A stretch of DNA of 25,745 nucleotides from the IMG/VR virus record IMGVR_UViG_3300006119_000059, positions 1 to 25,745 of that record; one strand, given 5' to 3'. Origin of the DNA: a virus. Below are positions 106 through 25,745 of this stretch, piece after piece; within the stretch, counting starts at the first letter, position 1; the number at the start of each line of letters is the position of its first letter. The notes beneath the pieces are model-generated. The model was not told the DNA's origin and did no database searches. It was given only the letters and a program-made list of their open reading frames with translations. A program made the position numbers and the translations under genes.

Positions 106-362
106 CAGCAAATGAACTAGCAGATATAAATGAGTGGTCTTGTTGTGCTCATAGTAAACAAGTTTCTGCCATGCTACGTCAACAAGCACAAGAAATAGAA
201 GCGTTAAATAATGCAGTAGATTCTTTAGTATTAAATAATGTTTTGTGGGAGTTAACAGATGAGGAAATACTAGCCCTATGGGTAAAGAAAAACAATCTAA
301 ATGGTGCTAAAGATATTTTAGATTTTGCTAGAGATTTATTAAAGAAAGCGAGTGAGAAATGA
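102..362 (+). CDS. Small phage protein with MTANELAD / TDEEI modules
   Basis: This is an 86-residue soluble protein of unknown function. The N-terminus MTANELAD followed by MLRQQAQEIEAL (about residues 24-35) is a signature I recognise from many small phage proteins. The second half, with LTDEEILALW (about 51-60) and a C-terminal FARDLLKKASEK, resembles another recurrent phage module. The gene therefore looks like a fusion of two common accessory modules. The start overlaps the preceding stop (ATGA), and its own TGA overlaps the ATG of the glycosyltransferase gene in the same way. An antisense frame over the same DNA (179-508) has no such features and was discounted. Confidence 0.8.
   Translation: MTANELADINEWSCCAHSKQVSAMLRQQAQEIEALNNAVDSLVLNNVLWELTDEEILALWVKKNNLNGAKDILDFARDLLKKASEK
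340..362 (+). repeat. 23-bp direct repeat, copy 2, at a gene junction
   Basis: This is the second exact copy of the 83-105 repeat. It again supplies the last codons of the upstream gene, the ribosome-binding region and the ATGA overlap that starts the next gene (ATG 359). The two copies bracket the 102-362 gene as a unit 257 bp long. Confidence 0.9.
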
Positions 363-1741
363 AAATTGTTGTCATTACGCCCACAACAGGAAAAGAAACA
401 TTGCAAAGAGCTATTGATTCTGTCAAAGCACAGACTATGAAATGTGAACATTGGGTGATTGTTGATGGAAAATTCGATTTTTCTTGTGACGCAGACGTTG
501 TTATTCATTTACCAGAAAATACGGGAAGGGCAGGCGGTATTTTATGGAATGGTCAACGCATCTACGCAGGTATGCCGTTTATGATCAATGCAGATTATAT
601 GCTGTTCTTAGATGAAGATAATTGGTTTGAACCAACACATGTCAATGATATGGTGTTTAAATGTGAATCGGAAAACCTAGCATGGTGCTATTCACTGCGC
701 AGAATCTTTAATACAGAAGGCGAATACGTCTGTAATGATGACGTTGAATCACTTGGCAAACTCTCTAGCAATCCAGATACATTTGTGGATATGAACTGCT
801 ATTGTGTTAGAGGGGATGTCTTACCTACTTTATCTCCAGCTCTCTATCATGGTGGCTGGGGTGAAGATCGTGCATTTTATCAAGCGCTTGTAGATAATGC
901 ACCACAATTTGAGTGTACGAATGGCTATACCGTGAACTACACTGCACCCGATCGTTTATTACCCATGTTTTTAAATAACCAAAAAAAGGAAACTCAAATG
1001 GCATCTATTTTTATTGCAACACCTATGTATGGCGGTATGTGTGCAGGATATTACACACAATCTATTCTCCAACTTTCCGATTTACTCAAACAACACGGTA
1101 TTGAGAATACTTTTAGCTTTATGTTTAATGAATCTCTCATCACCAGAGCAAGAAATGCACTTACAAACGCATTTTTAAAGAAAGAGGGCTGCACACATCT
1201 CATGTTTATTGATGCAGATATTCACTTTAAACCGCATGATGTATTAAGTCTTTTACAAGCTGATAAAGACATTATTTGTGGCATCTATCCTAAAAAAGAA
1301 ATCAATTGGCATGGTGTAGAGAAGGCAGTTAAAAATAACGTGCCACAGGATCAATTAAAACGTCATACAGGCAGCTTTGTAGTGAACTTAGTAGGTTATG
1401 CAGGAGAAGTAACTGTACCGATTAATGAACCCGTAGAAATCTTTAATGGTGGCACTGGATTTATGCTTATCAAACGTGAAGTATTTGAAAAAATGAAAGA
1501 TTCTATGCCGTTCTACTTAAATGATGTGACTGATTTAGGCGGAAACATGGAACAGCAAGACAAGATTACAGAATATTTTGCAACCAGCATAGAACCAGAA
1601 ACAGGCAGATTGTTGTCTGAAGATTATCACTTCTGTTACAACTGGCGCAAAATGGGTGGTAAAGTGTATGCTGCCCCGTGGGCTGAGTTATCCCACATTG
1701 GAACATACGCTTTTGATGGCAGACTTACTCCTGCCGCATAA
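359..1741 (+). CDS. Two-domain (GT-A type) glycosyltransferase
   Basis: The 460-residue protein appears to be two glycosyltransferase domains in tandem. Domain 1 (about 1-205) starts KIVVITPTTGKETLQRAI, has a metal-binding DED (D85-D87, in MLFLDEDNWF) and GGWGEDRAF near 166-173, typical of GT2-like enzymes. Domain 2 (from about M214) starts MASIFIATPMYGG, has a DAD motif (D285-D287, in LMFIDADIHF) and ends with LSHIGTY. Both would move a sugar from a nucleotide-sugar donor onto an acceptor glycan in the cytoplasm. M214 (ATG 998-1000) follows AAAGGAAA at a good distance, so domain 2 might also be made alone. The start overlaps the upstream stop (ATGA), and the 3' end overlaps the convergent methyltransferase gene by 17 bp. 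The acceptor and linkage cannot be told from sequence. Confidence 0.85.
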   Translation: MKIVVITPTTGKETLQRAIDSVKAQTMKCEHWVIVDGKFDFSCDADVVIHLPENTGRAGGILWNGQRIYAGMPFMINADYMLFLDEDNWFEPTHVNDMVFKCESENLAWCYSLRRIFNTEGEYVCNDDVESLGKLSSNPDTFVDMNCYCVRGDVLPTLSPALYHGGWGEDRAFYQALVDNAPQFECTNGYTVNYTAPDRLLPMFLNNQKKETQMASIFIATPMYGGMCAGYYTQSILQLSDLLKQHGIENTFSFMFNESLITRARNALTNAFLKKEGCTHLMFIDADIHFKPHDVLSLLQADKDIICGIYPKKEINWHGVEKAVKNNVPQDQLKRHTGSFVVNLVGYAGEVTVPINEPVEIFNGGTGFMLIKREVFEKMKDSMPFYLNDVTDLGGNMEQQDKITEYFATSIEPETGRLLSEDYHFCYNWRKMGGKVYAAPWAELSHIGTYAFDGRLTPAA

Positions 1742-3754: not shown

Positions 3755-3979
3755 CTACCTACAACCCCATCTTTGCCTTGCAGCTTTACCACGTTCACCT
3801 TTCCAGCTTTTTGATCTAGCGCAAAAAGACTTGTGACGTGGTCCTGATTTCTGTGGTGCTTTCAAATTACTACCAGTTGCACGGTTATACTTTCTGCGCC
3901 CTTTAGCAGTCAAACCACCGCCACGAGCAACAGATTGTTTCTCACCTCTACCAACAGAAAGGTTAGGTTTAGAATTCAT
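3755..3979 (-). CDS. Small basic protein, DUF6321-like
   Basis: This 74-residue, strongly basic protein contains GGGLTAKGRRKYNRATGSNL (21-40) followed by KAP and a Ser-Phe-Cys-Ala-Arg segment. This pattern matches a small conserved phage protein family I recall as DUF6321, whose function is unknown. Its ATG overlaps the endolysin stop as ATGA. The high Arg/Lys content would suit nucleic-acid or virion binding, but that is inference. The family name should be treated as probable. Confidence 0.75.
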   Translation of the reverse strand: MNSKPNLSVGRGEKQSVARGGGLTAKGRRKYNRATGSNLKAPQKSGPRHKSFCARSKSWKGERGKAARQRWGCR

Positions 3980-13212: not shown

Positions 13213-14516
13213 GATAGTCCTAATGCAGTTCGTAAAGATTCAGTATTCCACACATTACGTTGATTCTTGTCATCCCCTTGAAAAATAGGATTTCCTGTGG
13301 TTGCAGGATCTGGATTACTTGATTGTAATGCTTGTCCAAGAATAGAGGAAGATGGTGCGCCTAAAACACTAGATAAAACTTGTGGAGATGTTCCACCAGA
13401 AGAAACAATGGTTGGACTGATTAACTGTAATTTATCACTCGGTGTCGCTTGACCTTTTTGTGTAGTTCCACCCTCATCAATTGTAGAAGTTTGTTTTCCA
13501 GTTACATCTAATGCTCCAGCCGATAAAGGTTGAGTTGTTTGTGTTCCTAATGCTCCAGCCGATAAAGGTTGAGTTGTTTGTGTTCCTAATGCTCCAGCCG
13601 ATAAAGGTTGAGTTGTTTGTGTTCCTAATGCACCACTCAATGTAGATGATGTTGAACCACCACCTGAATAATCAGCCGTAGAACTTGGATAAGTTCCTGC
13701 ATTACTAAGATATAAACTATCTTCTGATGGTTCATTCAATGTAGGTTGATAAATACTACCATCTGCGTAAGTATATTGGTTAACATCAGGATTCCACATA
13801 ACACCTGCTGGCAATGGAGTTGCTTGAAAAGTACCTGATTGTGCATCTGTAGTTTGTTGTGGATTACTAAGCGAATCAATAGTTACAGTAGGTTGATTTT
13901 CTGCTAATTGTGTTGGTTGAGGATTGTATGCAACTTGTTGTCCTGTTTGTGGATTAAATACGGATTTTGCTAAACCACCAACAGCACCTTGAACACCACC
14001 ATATAAAGCAGATTGTCCAACATTTTGTCCAGCAAGTTGTGCAGCCGTTGCACTTCCTGTAGCACCACCTAAAATGTTTCCTGTTGTTCCACCAATCTCT
14101 GTACCCAATGCAGAACCTAAAGCACCACCTGCTGCGCCTGCACCAACATCACCACCTTTTAATCCTGCCGATAATGCACCTTTAGCTGCTCCACCTACGG
14201 CAGCAGCGCCTTCTGTACCTAAATCACCTATTGCACCACCCGCAGCAGAACTAATTTCAGAACCTGCTCCACCAGATACAGCACCTACACCTGCTGCGTT
14301 TAAAACTTGTTGAGCATCACCACCTGCGACAGCAGTTCCAATCGCATTACTTGCACCACCGATGGCGGCAGCACCTATTGCGTCTGCTGTTGTTAAAGAA
14401 ACTGTTGCACCAACACTATCAGCAATTGCAGCACCTATATATGGTGCTAATTCTGGCATCGCAGCAACAACAGCTACGGCAACAATATCAACAACGACAG
14501 GAGCAGCAGCACCCAT
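13209..14516 (-). CDS. Putative internal virion protein, Gly/Ala-rich with tandem repeats (435 aa)
   Basis: The first about 190 residues are almost all small or hydrophobic (Gly, Ala, Val, Ile), with AVAVVAAMPELAPYIGAAIA near 13-32 and repeated GxxxG/AxxxG patterns that could insert in a membrane. A Pro/Thr/Ser-rich region follows, with three copies of a 13-residue unit (GALGTQTTQPLSA) encoded by identical 39-bp repeats. The C-terminus is polar. It is the first gene of the ejection module. Its ATG overlaps the upstream stop (TAATG), and its TGA overlaps the next start. The role is inferred from composition and place. Confidence 0.7.
   Translation of the reverse strand: MGAAAPVVVDIVAVAVVAAMPELAPYIGAAIADSVGATVSLTTADAIGAAAIGGASNAIGTAVAGGDAQQVLNAAGVGAVSGGAGSEISSAAGGAIGDLGTEGAAAVGGAAKGALSAGLKGGDVGAGAAGGALGSALGTEIGGTTGNILGGATGSATAAQLAGQNVGQSALYGGVQGAVGGLAKSVFNPQTGQQVAYNPQPTQLAENQPTVTIDSLSNPQQTTDAQSGTFQATPLPAGVMWNPDVNQYTYADGSIYQPTLNEPSEDSLYLSNAGTYPSSTADYSGGGSTSSTLSGALGTQTTQPLSAGALGTQTTQPLSAGALGTQTTQPLSAGALDVTGKQTSTIDEGGTTQKGQATPSDKLQLISPTIVSSGGTSPQVLSSVLGAPSSSILGQALQSSNPDPATTGNPIFQGDDKNQRNVWNTESLRTALGLS
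13512..13628 (-). repeat. Tandem repeat, 3 identical copies of 39 bp
   Basis: Units are at 13512-13550, 13551-13589 and 13590-13628, identical base for base. Each encodes 13 residues (GALGTQTTQPLSA, circularly permuted). A degenerate edge continues on both sides. In-frame identical copies suggest recent expansion by slippage or recombination. Confidence 0.95.
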
Positions 14517-22961: not shown

Positions 22962-23498
22962 TCATAAACCAATGGGCTTAGTGCTTTTACGCAAGTCCAT
23001 TAGCGCCTGTGCTGCTTCGTTTCTTGCACCTTGAATCGGATTTTTCATAAACGACTCAAGATTAAATTTCTTCATCACGTTTGGATTGTAACCCATACTT
23101 GAGTCAGAAGTAGGTACTGCTGCTTGTTTCATCCACTCGAAATATTCAGCTGCTGTTTCGTGATCGTGAATTTGTTTTTCCAGCATAATTTTTTCAATTT
23201 CTGGAATGTCGTTTTCAGATGCTTTACCTTTTTTGATTAAAGAATTTCTACGACTTTGTAAATCTTCCATTGCTTCTTTTTCTTTCATTTTTGATGCCAA
23301 TTTCTGATACTCGTCTTGCGTTTGCTTGAGTTGTTTAGAAATGTGATCTTTGAGAGAAAGTTCTGGAATCGTTAAATCAGGTTTCACTTGTTGCGTTAAA
23401 CGCAAAAAAGATTCCCGTGTATTTGGATTATCAGCGAGCTGTTTTGCAAGCATCGCTAATTCATCTCGTTGTTCTAGTGAAAGATCTTCTAAAGACAT
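22962..23498 (-). CDS. Scaffolding protein
   Basis: The 178-residue protein is nearly all helical and highly charged (LKDHISKQLKQTQDEYQKLA, then SKMKEKEAMEDLQSRRNSLI), with a basic, less charged C-terminus (FMKNPIQGARNEAAQALMDL). Its place directly before the major capsid gene is classical for the internal scaffold that directs capsid assembly. The start follows AGGGGATAAAA. No protease is seen near it. Confidence 0.8.
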   Translation of the reverse strand: MSLEDLSLEQRDELAMLAKQLADNPNTRESFLRLTQQVKPDLTIPELSLKDHISKQLKQTQDEYQKLASKMKEKEAMEDLQSRRNSLIKKGKASENDIPEIEKIMLEKQIHDHETAAEYFEWMKQAAVPTSDSSMGYNPNVMKKFNLESFMKNPIQGARNEAAQALMDLRKSTKPIGL

Positions 23499-23515: not shown

Positions 23516-23701
23516 TTAAATGACTTTTTTAGTATCACCAGGATTACTTGTGGTCATCATATTTTTAAATCCAGCTTTAGGTGCTGAAGTTAAACCACCA
23601 AATTGTGAATATCTTGGTGTATTAATGATTTGACCATTTTTCTGGTTGTTGTCGGTAGGTCTACGAGGAGATGCTGCACCTCTTGGTTTAAACAGTTCCA
23701 T
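23516..23701 (-). CDS. Hypothetical small head-region protein (61 aa)
   Basis: I use ATG 23699-23701 (MELFKPRGAASPRRPTDNNQ), which has AAAGGAAA before it; a longer upstream frame reads out of register through the preceding gene. The protein is basic, Pro/Asn/Gly-rich and probably disordered, containing RYSQFGGLTSAPKAGFKNMM. No family is recognised. It lies between the 173-aa protein and the scaffold. Confidence 0.7.
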   Translation of the reverse strand: MELFKPRGAASPRRPTDNNQKNGQIINTPRYSQFGGLTSAPKAGFKNMMTTSNPGDTKKVI

Positions 23702-23711
23702 ACTATTTCCT

Positions 23712-24233
23712 TTACATAGGTTGTGGTGGAGGCATACCACCAGGAGGAGGACCACCAGCACCAGCGCCCATTGGAGGCATTGGAGGAGAAGGTGCGCCAC
23801 CAGGTGACATACCAGGAATCAACGGTGCTTGTTGCATTGCTTTACCTTCAGGCGTTGCACCACCAGCTTGAGGTAATTGTTGTAACATTTGCATGATTTC
23901 AGTTGGTTGCAAAGAATTCGTTTTTGCTCTCTTTGCACCGAGAATTGTTGTCAAGGTACGAATACCATTTAATACTTTTTGACCTTCTTCTGATTCACTG
24001 CCAAGTGCAGGCAATGCTTGCTCTAATAAATCCATTGCCATTGCAATGTTCACTAATGATGCCTCACGATTTCCCATCTTGGGTTCTGGTGTTGACATGG
24101 GAGAAGCCATAGGCGCACTACTGGGATCAGAGATACCTGTTGGTGTTTCAGGAACGGGTGGCTTTCCACCAGGAGTTGCTCCATCCTTTTGGCTTTTCAA
24201 CAAGTTCATCAACTGATCTGGCGGCATGCTCAT
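23712..24233 (-). CDS. Pro/Gly/Met-rich head-region protein (173 aa)
   Basis: A disordered N-terminus (Pro/Ser-rich, about 18-52) leads to a helical core (ASLVNIAMAMDLLEQALPAL, 58-77, then KVLNGIRTLTTILGAKRAK). The C-terminus is very Pro/Gly/Met/Gln-rich. It sits between portal and scaffold, where phages often encode a head-assembly or portal-associated protein; the exact role is unknown. AGGA lies 8 bases before its ATG. The leader is the structured intergenic region at 24234-24357. Confidence 0.75.
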   Translation of the reverse strand: MSMPPDQLMNLLKSQKDGATPGGKPPVPETPTGISDPSSAPMASPMSTPEPKMGNREASLVNIAMAMDLLEQALPALGSESEEGQKVLNGIRTLTTILGAKRAKTNSLQPTEIMQMLQQLPQAGGATPEGKAMQQAPLIPGMSPGGAPSPPMPPMGAGAGGPPPGGMPPPQPM

Positions 24234-24357
24234 AGTTATTTCCTATTCAATTACAAGAAAGATTAAACCTTTCTATCAAAATGTCAAGTAGGGGGTAATA
24301 TTTCTATTCCCACCCCCAAAGGGAGGTTAAACGGTCAAACCGTAGAATCCTTGCGGA
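24234..24357 (-). promoter_or_regulatory. Structured leader with hairpins and a possible promoter
   Basis: This 124-base stretch contains no gene that I can support. On the minus strand it holds a GCAA-tetraloop hairpin beginning in the preceding stop (24346-24359), a small hairpin ACGGT-TTG-ACCGT (24331-24343), and a GGGGGT/ACCCCC pair (24291-24296 with 24312-24317). Next comes a perfect TTGACA (24282-24287) with TTTAAT only 14 bases on (24262-24267), shorter than the usual 16-18 spacing. It could be a terminator-promoter unit, but the promoter is weakly supported. Confidence 0.35.
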
Positions 24358-24396
24358 TTACTTACGACCTTTACGACCTTTTCTTCCTTTACGCAT
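24358..24396 (-). CDS. Tiny Arg/Lys/Gly peptide (12 aa)
   Basis: The ORF MRKGRKGRKGRK has ATG 24394-24396, a GGAG ribosome site 7 bases upstream and a TAA stop. It is three and a half near-copies of a Lys-Gly-Arg unit, strongly cationic, so it could bind nucleic acid or membrane. A GTG at 24447 would give 29 residues (MLAANPNRWTAWIRRFS before the basic part). It could instead be a chance ORF in a structured RNA region. Confidence 0.45.
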   Translation of the reverse strand: MRKGRKGRKGRK

Positions 24397-24474
24397 GGAA
24401 AATCTCCTAATCCAAGCGGTCCACCGATTTGGGTTGGCAGCCAACACCCTTTCCTTCTCACAGGAAACCCGTGT
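24397..24474 (-). other. GC-rich structured gap between two tiny ORFs
   Basis: This stretch has 41 of 78 bases G or C by my count, well above its AT-rich surroundings. On the minus strand I see a hairpin TTTCCT-GTGAGA-AGGAAA with outer ACAC/GTGT pairing, then GTTGG-CTG-CCAAC, then AATC...GATT closing CGG-TGGA-CCG. It stays open in the frame of both neighbours. It may be a structured RNA or leader; the function is unknown. Confidence 0.35.
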
Positions 24475-24633
24475 TTATCCCCTCGTAGGTCTACCGCCAT
24501 AATCTTTGCGAGTCCCACGACTAAAACTTTTAATACCAGTATTTTTGTACTGCATAGATGGCGTAGCACTTCTCTTTAAAGTTTCCGTAGATACTTTAGG
24601 TTGATCAGCTCTGGGCGCTACATTAATTGCCAT
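24475..24633 (-). CDS. Small basic protein after the portal (52 aa)
   Basis: The protein starts MAINVAPRADQPKVSTETLK and ends FSRGTRKDYGGRPTRG, basic and probably disordered. Its ATG overlaps the portal stop as TGATG, and a GGAGGA ribosome site lies immediately upstream, which makes the start convincing. The alternative frame through this region (24327-24569) has no ribosome site and overlaps several signals, so I discarded it. The function is unknown; a head-assembly role is possible from place. Confidence 0.7.
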   Translation of the reverse strand: MAINVAPRADQPKVSTETLKRSATPSMQYKNTGIKSFSRGTRKDYGGRPTRG

Positions 24634-25745
24634 CATTCCTCCATCTTCATTTTATGCTGTTCTTTACCTTTTTGACCTTGAGGTTGCGGTTGTGTTGCTT
24701 TTTTCGCTTCCTCTTGCTTTAAACGGTCTTTCAGTAATTGTTTCATTGGTGGCTCTAATAAGTCAAGTAAAGATTCTTTACTAATTGCTTGCGCCTTAAA
24801 TAAATTAAATGCTAACTGTTTTAAATCCTCTGTAAAGATAGGACTATTGGAGTGAGCATCCACTTTTACTACAAAATCGTCTGTAAATTGTTCTGCAATA
24901 AACAGTTTACCGTCTACATCTTTAAAATGCGTATCATCATAATTTTTCATGAGTTTTAAATACAAAGTAGCCACTTTTTCAAGGCTATCTTCTACAATCA
25001 AAGCTCTTTTCTTAGCTCTAGAGCTACCAAGACGTGCTAATTGGCTTGCATGACCTTGAGAACGGACTCCAGACTCACCTTTACCTGATAATACGTTAGA
25101 AATACCAGAAACTTCACTAAACATAGCGTCAATTTCATGGATGACTTCAAATAAATCAGGTGGCATCTCAGGAGCAAGGTTTTCAACCCTCGCACCAGGC
25201 ATATCACTAGCAATATGGCTTCCAGCACGGTTTAAAGCCAAGAATTTCTCATCCATGATGCCACTAATACCTGAAAACACTCTTGGAGGAGCTACTTGTT
25301 TACTTAACAAGTCTAAAATCTCTGTCATACGGGTATTTCTAAGTTGTTGAAGGTTTACTAGCTTAGAAACTTCCGACACACCCCAAAAATAATCGTATTG
25401 AGGGACTGGGCATATCTGTACAAAAGGACATTCACCTTTTAAAAACATACTTTCACCAGGTCTGTCATAAATAACCACATTAGGATTAGCAATGGTTACT
25501 ACTTGATAATCTTGCGTATCATCGTTCCATAACCAACACTCACGCATTTCCACCATATCTTCAGCAACTCTAGCTTTGTAACGGTTTGTGCCGTACAACT
25601 CCATATTGACATTACCGTAGATAGTAGGGTTAGTTTGGGACATAACAATACGGTTTACTGCGTCTGGAATCTCAGATTCTTGTACTCGAACACCACCAAC
25701 CACCCTTTTAATGATGGCATCACGTTGCGGATGGGAATAAAGACG
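24633..25745 (-). CDS. Portal protein (5' end outside window)
   Basis: The frame stays open to the window edge; the apparent GTG start at 25703 is internal, since RLYSHPQRDAIIKRVVGG reads on upstream. Visible features fit a podoviral (P22/BPP-1-type) portal: WLWNDDTQDYQVVTIANPNV, YDRPGESMFLKGECPFVQIC, YDYFWGVSEVSKLVNLQQLR, SEVSGISNVLSGKGESGVRS and RAKKRALIVEDSLEKVATLY, ending in a charged Gln/Lys-rich tail. The portal ring is the capsid vertex through which DNA is packed and released. It is the most upstream gene seen here; a terminase is expected beyond the edge. Its TGA overlaps the next ATG. Confidence 0.9.
   Translation of the reverse strand, partial: RLYSHPQRDAIIKRVVGGVRVQESEIPDAVNRIVMSQTNPTIYGNVNMELYGTNRYKARVAEDMVEMRECWLWNDDTQDYQVVTIANPNVVIYDRPGESMFLKGECPFVQICPVPQYDYFWGVSEVSKLVNLQQLRNTRMTEILDLLSKQVAPPRVFSGISGIMDEKFLALNRAGSHIASDMPGARVENLAPEMPPDLFEVIHEIDAMFSEVSGISNVLSGKGESGVRSQGHASQLARLGSSRAKKRALIVEDSLEKVATLYLKLMKNYDDTHFKDVDGKLFIAEQFTDDFVVKVDAHSNSPIFTEDLKQLAFNLFKAQAISKESLLDLLEPPMKQLLKDRLKQEEAKKATQPQPQGQKGKEQHKMKMEE

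Follow-up and report, generated by a model that had tools for sequence, protein, structure and literature searches.

The J/VP8 proteins of microviruses (phiX174, gokushoviruses) are small and strongly basic, lie in the capsid interior and are encoded beside the capsid genes (PMC11945456), and the adenovirus core peptide Mu, also very short and basic at 19 aa, is associated with a dsDNA genome (PMC7998265). As regards RNA, a 2010 review described the pseudoknot of gene 32 as possibly the sole viral pseudoknot in translational autoregulation (PMC3014915). The nearest known kinds are thus small, basic viral peptides that bind nucleic acid and, among RNAs, the pseudoknots of phage mRNAs. The locus described here combines a micro-ORF for a 12-residue basic peptide with a structured RNA upstream of it; the peptide family itself was found in no library or paper.

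The micro-ORF and its genomic setting

The window, by which we mean the whole stretch of DNA analysed, is a 25,745-base virus record with its head genes on the minus strand. The portal gene, assigned to phrog_1216/SU10_portal, and the gene downstream of it for p53, a basic protein of 53 aa (24475..24636, minus strand; relatives 40–100% identity), together span 24475-25745. An interval of 241 bases separates p53 from its downstream neighbour on the same strand, a Pro/Gly/Met-rich protein of 173 aa (23712..24233, minus strand; relatives 56–100%). Within this interval lies micro-ORF B, 12 codons plus TAA encoding MRKGRKGRKGRK (24358..24396, minus strand; ATG 24396-24394, stop 24360-24358). Its ribosome site had been called well placed in a preliminary description of this DNA, and rightly so: a Shine-Dalgarno (SD) sequence, AGGAG (24404..24408, minus strand), precedes the ATG at the optimal spacing of 7 nt and is kept in relatives. 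When both strands of the window were scanned from end to end for SD-preceded Lys/Arg-rich (K/R-rich) micro-ORFs, MRKGRKGRKGRK alone came up; the assignment rests on the SD, on uniqueness in the window and on the conservation and selection described below. The stretch 24288-24474 is GC-rich, as had been stated, at 48.1% against 37.2% for the window, although the island is only a modest one, since 2.6% of 187-nt windows are equally GC-rich and two stretches (14101-14300 and 23701-23900) are richer.

Neither p53 nor the 173-aa protein matched a family above cut-off in Pfam, PHROGs or PDB, where among the neighbouring proteins only the portal and capsid found matches. The preliminary description placed the island between portal and scaffold genes; the portal side of this statement stands, but the 178-aa protein (22962-23498), whose gene immediately precedes that of the major capsid, is a better scaffold candidate than the 173-aa protein, because of synteny with SU10 and phiEco32. 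Gene order in relatives is terminase–portal–p53–(micro-ORF)–...–capsid. Elsewhere in the window, 3755-3979 (minus strand) encodes a 74-aa basic protein of the DUF6321 family (PF19846), and a glycosyltransferase family 2 gene (359-1741, plus strand) lies at the window end, on the opposite strand to the head and tail genes.

As first noted, no stop interrupts the spacer 24397-24474, which shares the reading frame of its two neighbours. The accompanying proposal that readthrough would fuse the 53-aa protein to the peptide was rejected, because an in-frame open spacer is not kept among relatives: before the last micro-ORF it occurs in 6 of 73, and it is broken even inside the window's own clade (L005, L006, L007, L009-L011). 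Rfam gave no match at gathering score in the interval and relaxed searches yielded chance-level scores only; PhotoRC-I was discarded as an RNA family, its score of 14.1 against a cut-off of 45 being that of chance, and a tRNA was likewise rejected. Rfam, Pfam and PHROGs returned nothing in the interval, peptides of <20 aa lying outside what such libraries can scan, and such peptides were found nowhere described in the literature. Global small-ORF catalogues take ORFs of 30 nt, and unannotated copies may be there (PMC11364881). The family is invisible to ordinary annotation: in the public phage records MW202825 (L081) and MW202753 (L082) the micro-ORFs are unannotated and are covered by the reverse-strand hypothetical proteins UOF82412, UOF81572 and UOF81573 (L081 6263-6523, L082 4740-5038), which are spurious.

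Conservation, selection and spread of the peptide family

A portal search of IMG/VR provided 80 close loci that, with the annotated uncultured phages MW202825 and MW202753, gave a set of 82; 75 of these yielded the interval that follows p53. SD-preceded K/R-rich micro-ORFs numbered two in 58 of the 75 loci, one in 11 and three in 4; the two loci without any (L008, L077) are cut by a contig end, and every close relative with a complete p53-to-next-gene interval has one to three. Each copy has its own SD. The last micro-ORF (type B) has an RK C-terminus (GRK[GAS]RK, rarely CK), the earlier one (type A) has an RR C-terminus and a third cassette ends in SCK; type A is absent from the window's clade, L001-L011. 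L011 is also the only relative with an insertion of ∼400 nt between the micro-ORF and the 173-aa gene (L011:2131-2686), in which a small ORF resembles, by eye, an HNH-type homing endonuclease.

Comparison of distinct sequences by the Nei-Gojobori method gave pS 0.39 and pN 0.13 for type B micro-ORFs of 12 codons, 0.40 and 0.12 for those of 13 codons, and 0.74 and 0.37 for type A. The pN/pS of about 0.3 indicates that type B residues are under purifying selection. Codon swaps that preserve the residue occur for both Ser (TCN/AGY) and Arg (CGN/AGR), and among 321 distinct micro-ORFs from all loci GC3 tracks locus GC (rho 0.71, P about 1e-50), with a rho of 0.08 for GC2. Type B avoids rare Arg codons, CGT/CGC accounting for 97% of its Arg codons compared with 70% in portal and 79% in capsid genes.

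We fetched more distant loci from genomes and viruses using a portal alignment of 14 diverse members; most of these 14 had been found via their micro-ORF, but portal was the sole criterion for the loci that the alignment brought in. Of the 75 distant loci that extended far enough, 46 had a K/R-rich, SD-preceded micro-ORF ≤1.2 kb downstream of the portal; the controls gave 4 of 75 (an equal upstream stretch), 0 of 75 (reverse strand) and 1 of 1500 (dinucleotide shuffles). Relaxed criteria made 9 of the remaining 29 loci positive, with 1 reverse-strand hit in the same 29, and left 20 of the 75, mostly one high-GC group, without a detectable micro-ORF. A few of the 75 (for example L302, L218, L337) are contigs also present in a micro-ORF pattern scan of IMG/VR. 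That scan found at least 200 loci, at least 183 of them with the lineage's portal, capsid or neighbouring proteins; of the other 17 loci among the pattern matches listed, 16 are without a K/R-rich micro-ORF and L244 alone has one. The distant peptides include MARKSHRKGRK, MIERNRKGKRKHRK, MFTRSKRKHRKGRK and MTRYRRRKHRRK. In the stretches read of cultured Mx8, BUCT555, TM7 phage, Phriendly, GiJojo, SU10 and phiEco32, a K/R-rich micro-ORF is absent.

Peptide length is 10–15 aa throughout. Lys plus Arg make up 63% of the composition, almost without Asp/Glu or large hydrophobics, and net charge is +7 or +8 in 182 of 211 distinct peptides, figures that are partly conditioned by the searches because the IMG/VR pattern fixes the C-terminus and the micro-ORF scan demands ≥45% K/R. 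In L173, L313, L314, L338, L339 and L343 a second, different basic micropeptide is encoded right behind the first, for example MRRKMRRKGRQ, MVRYRMKRRHGRR and MPRFRRMRKSKRM. The comparison thus defines a family of predicted Lys/Arg-rich peptides of 10–15 residues, with 1–3 independently translated copies in the stretch from portal to capsid gene of a large uncultured podovirus-like lineage. Versions stand at the same place of the head cluster in hundreds of related phages, some of whose portals share as little as ∼1/4 of their residues, and these genes come close to the smallest size that a gene can have.

RNA structures and a putative promoter around the micro-ORF

The island had been said to fold into several small hairpins, which is not acceptable on folding alone because the single-sequence fold of the coding strand is ordinary (z = −0.98; 35 of 200 shuffles fold as well); it is comparison with relatives that backs structure here. 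An all-against-all search of column pairs in 101 non-redundant sequences, with no assumed structure, ranked three pairs at the top: two together make up an H-type pseudoknot, and the third lengthens its second helix beyond a bulged U. The predicted pseudoknot lies 10–20 nt upstream of the type B SD (24418..24450, minus strand). Helix P1 pairs GGG (24447-24449) with CCC (24431-24433), and P2 pairs GGCTGCC (24436-24442) with GGTGGACC (24418-24425), both on the minus strand. The window copy is a modified form, in that P2 needs one bulged A and a nested hairpin, UUGG-CUG-CCAA, competes; a strict descriptor without bulges gave no match to it.

When 44 sequences were aligned with MAFFT by sequence only, 88.8% of the cells of the 14-pair structure were paired and 12 of the 14 pairs showed both-side changes (72 cells). 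Because the 44 sequences were hand-picked for diversity and trimmed to the motif, two controls outweigh the raw 88.8%: no shuffle of 500 reached any pseudoknot measure, and sliding the 3′ arms by 1–3 columns lowered pairing to 39–57%. Conserved U-G and G-U pairs in P2, seen in 30 and 34 of the 44 sequences, identify the RNA strand as the mRNA strand; a plus-strand fold (z = −2.5) was set aside since these pairs need minus-strand RNA. The strict descriptor matched 58 of 110 motif sequences (shuffles 4%) and 8 of 78 other micro-ORF loci (shuffles 6%), indicating that only a portion of the lineage has the pseudoknot and that the peptide is far more widespread. Different shared RNA-like motifs precede the micro-ORF in L135 and L223 and likewise in L162, L178 and L195 (GGTATCGAGGAACC; GGCGGTTGTTG..AGAGGAG), which suggests that each clade may have its own structured leader.

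The preliminary description had left the choice between a structured RNA, a cationic micropeptide or both. On comparative grounds the gene and the RNA are almost certainly both real, and the random drift without conserved structure or peptide that it had named as a refutation was looked for and did not occur; the head-assembly role that it gave the peptide is suggested by position and charge. Its packaging role for the RNA found no support. Translational regulation fits better, because the RNA stands just upstream of the micro-ORF ribosome site, and the pseudoknot probably regulates micro-ORF translation.

Downstream of the pseudoknot, a putative short hairpin, AATCC-GCAA-GGATT, covers the micro-ORF stop (24346..24359, minus strand) and is seen by eye after the type B stop in most relatives. 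A second putative hairpin, ACGGT-TTG-ACCGT (24331..24343, minus strand), has arms that vary between relatives. It is followed by a G/C hairpin, GGGGGT...ACCCCC (24291..24317, minus strand), that lies just before a TTGAC element and has perfectly complementary arms of changing sequence in 36 of 45 distinct relatives. An intrinsic terminator at 24291-24317 was considered and rejected, the hairpin being followed by UACUUGACA, without a U-run.

The TTGAC element reads as part of a putative sigma70-type promoter of the following head genes, placed before the 173-aa gene (24260..24287, minus strand) with TTGACA at 24282-24287 and, after 16 nt, TAATCT at 24260-24265. TTGAC is present in 45 of 45 distinct relatives; in 42 of these it precedes the following start codon by 49–57 nt, mostly by 53–57 nt, and the −10 element at 16 nt is TAnnnT-like in most, with A in second and T in sixth position in 32. 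A promoter here means that the micro-ORF would end the portal transcript, and its place upstream of this putative promoter means that it would not necessarily be expressed at capsid levels. Over the −10 region (24260-24287, minus strand, and in relatives) we also noticed by eye a dyad whose arms change together (GAAAG/CTTTC, TAAGG/CCTTA, TTAGG/CCTAA, GCATAG/CTATGC), for which either an RNA hairpin or an operator that evolves quickly might account.

Function of the peptide and comparison with known systems

Comparison of the loci shows coding selection, synteny, a narrow range of length and charge and a conserved upstream pseudoknot. We infer that the product acts in trans, because there are several independently translated copies, the C-terminal classes are distinct and the Arg codons are common ones. 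With 63% Lys plus Arg, a charge of +7/+8 and no hydrophobic core, little beyond polyanion binding would be possible for such a peptide, and a gene placed between those for portal and capsid suggests a part in head assembly or packaging. Our preferred reading, at a probability of roughly 0.4, is therefore one by analogy with J and Mu, in which the peptide would serve head assembly or packaging as a small polycation with affinity for nucleic acid. It would be made in quantity, stay unfolded and bind nucleic acid during head assembly, where it would most likely neutralize or compact the packaged DNA or bridge DNA or RNA to acidic head proteins, and the pseudoknot upstream of the ribosome site would most likely tune its translation. 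The location of the micro-ORF upstream of the putative head promoter and the lack of a detectable one in 20 of the 75 distant loci count against this reading, and at 12 residues the peptide is shorter than any DNA-condensing virion protein known to us. That the peptides constitute the genome-condensing core of the virion, a tailed-phage protamine whose genes are often tandem and whose dosage is set by a dedicated autoregulatory pseudoknot, seems doubtful to us. The polycation reading raises the possibility that head assembly or packaging in tailed phages involves polycationic peptides dedicated to the task.

Given how near the pseudoknot lies, the chief rival is that the peptide is an arginine-rich-motif ligand of its own transcript's pseudoknot or hairpins that controls head-gene translation or transcription, in the manner of the N-terminal part of lambda N or of the gp32 system. 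T4 gp32 represses its own translation via a pseudoknot 67 nt upstream of the start codon (PMC3014915). Here a pseudoknot with both-side changes in 12 of 14 pairs stands 10–20 nt before the type B SD, and the size and charge of the peptide suit RNA binding; however, the peptide is kept in loci without the pseudoknot (descriptor hits in 8 of 78, against 6% of shuffles), and its sequence wanders freely while the charge stays fixed, a pattern that fits loose electrostatic contacts more readily than one specific site. We consider this explanation unlikely, and would give less weight still to a cis-acting leader ORF, whose translation slows or positions ribosomes so that neighbouring RNA folds or opens and whose peptide has no job of its own. 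Ribosome-stalling leader peptides such as ErmBL are well known, basic nascent chains can slow ribosomes, and the micro-ORF has RNA structures on either side and head genes after it. Such a leader is nevertheless hard to reconcile with common rather than rare Arg codons, with 1–3 copies per phage of differing C-terminal classes, with a promoter-like element between micro-ORF B and the next gene, with a variable distance to that gene, and with the 400-nt insertion after the micro-ORF of L011.

The peptide might instead be a head-assembly cofactor that binds an acidic surface of the portal, scaffold or capsid protein, not nucleic acid. Its gene lies between portal and capsid genes, and scaffold–coat contacts are electrostatic in other phages, but the candidate partners, the portal, 173-aa, 178-aa and capsid proteins, are just slightly acidic overall; we regard this possibility as improbable. 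A chance ORF in a GC-rich spacer, with no gene at all, would agree with the length of 39 nt and the ordinary single-sequence fold energy, yet it is refuted by conservation, selection, synteny and the behaviour of GC3, and its likelihood is close to nil.

Like J/VP8, the micropeptide is strongly basic, has little or no acidic residue and is encoded near capsid genes. Microvirus J proteins are about 24–40 aa long and belong to ssDNA phages, whereas the micropeptide is 10–15 aa, often tandem, from a tailed dsDNA lineage and known from sequence only; we do not file it as a J/VP8 member because the length differs and homology is beyond judging at 10–15 aa. Mu (pX), a product of an animal virus, is released by proteolysis of a precursor of 79 aa, in contrast to direct translation of the micropeptide at 10–15 aa. 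The arginine-rich motifs of lambda N, Tat and Rev are basic stretches of 10–20 residues within longer proteins, with fixed contact residues; the micropeptide offers a similar basic stretch that could bind structured RNA, but as a free peptide whose residues drift at constant charge. SU10 and phiEco32 have the SU10_portal family and a similar gene order in common with the window, and carry a 78-aa gene and no micro-ORF between portal and scaffold, where the window has its micro-ORF. Finally, the predicted pseudoknot shares with that of T4/T2/RB69 gene 32, and with the E. coli rpsO operator, an H-type fold in mRNA upstream of the ribosome site, which comparison supports for the family and which the window has in modified form. 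It differs from the gene 32 pseudoknot in sequence and distance, in lying between micro-ORFs of a head operon and in having no Rfam match, and would add to the gene 32 case a further phage mRNA pseudoknot upstream of a ribosome site.
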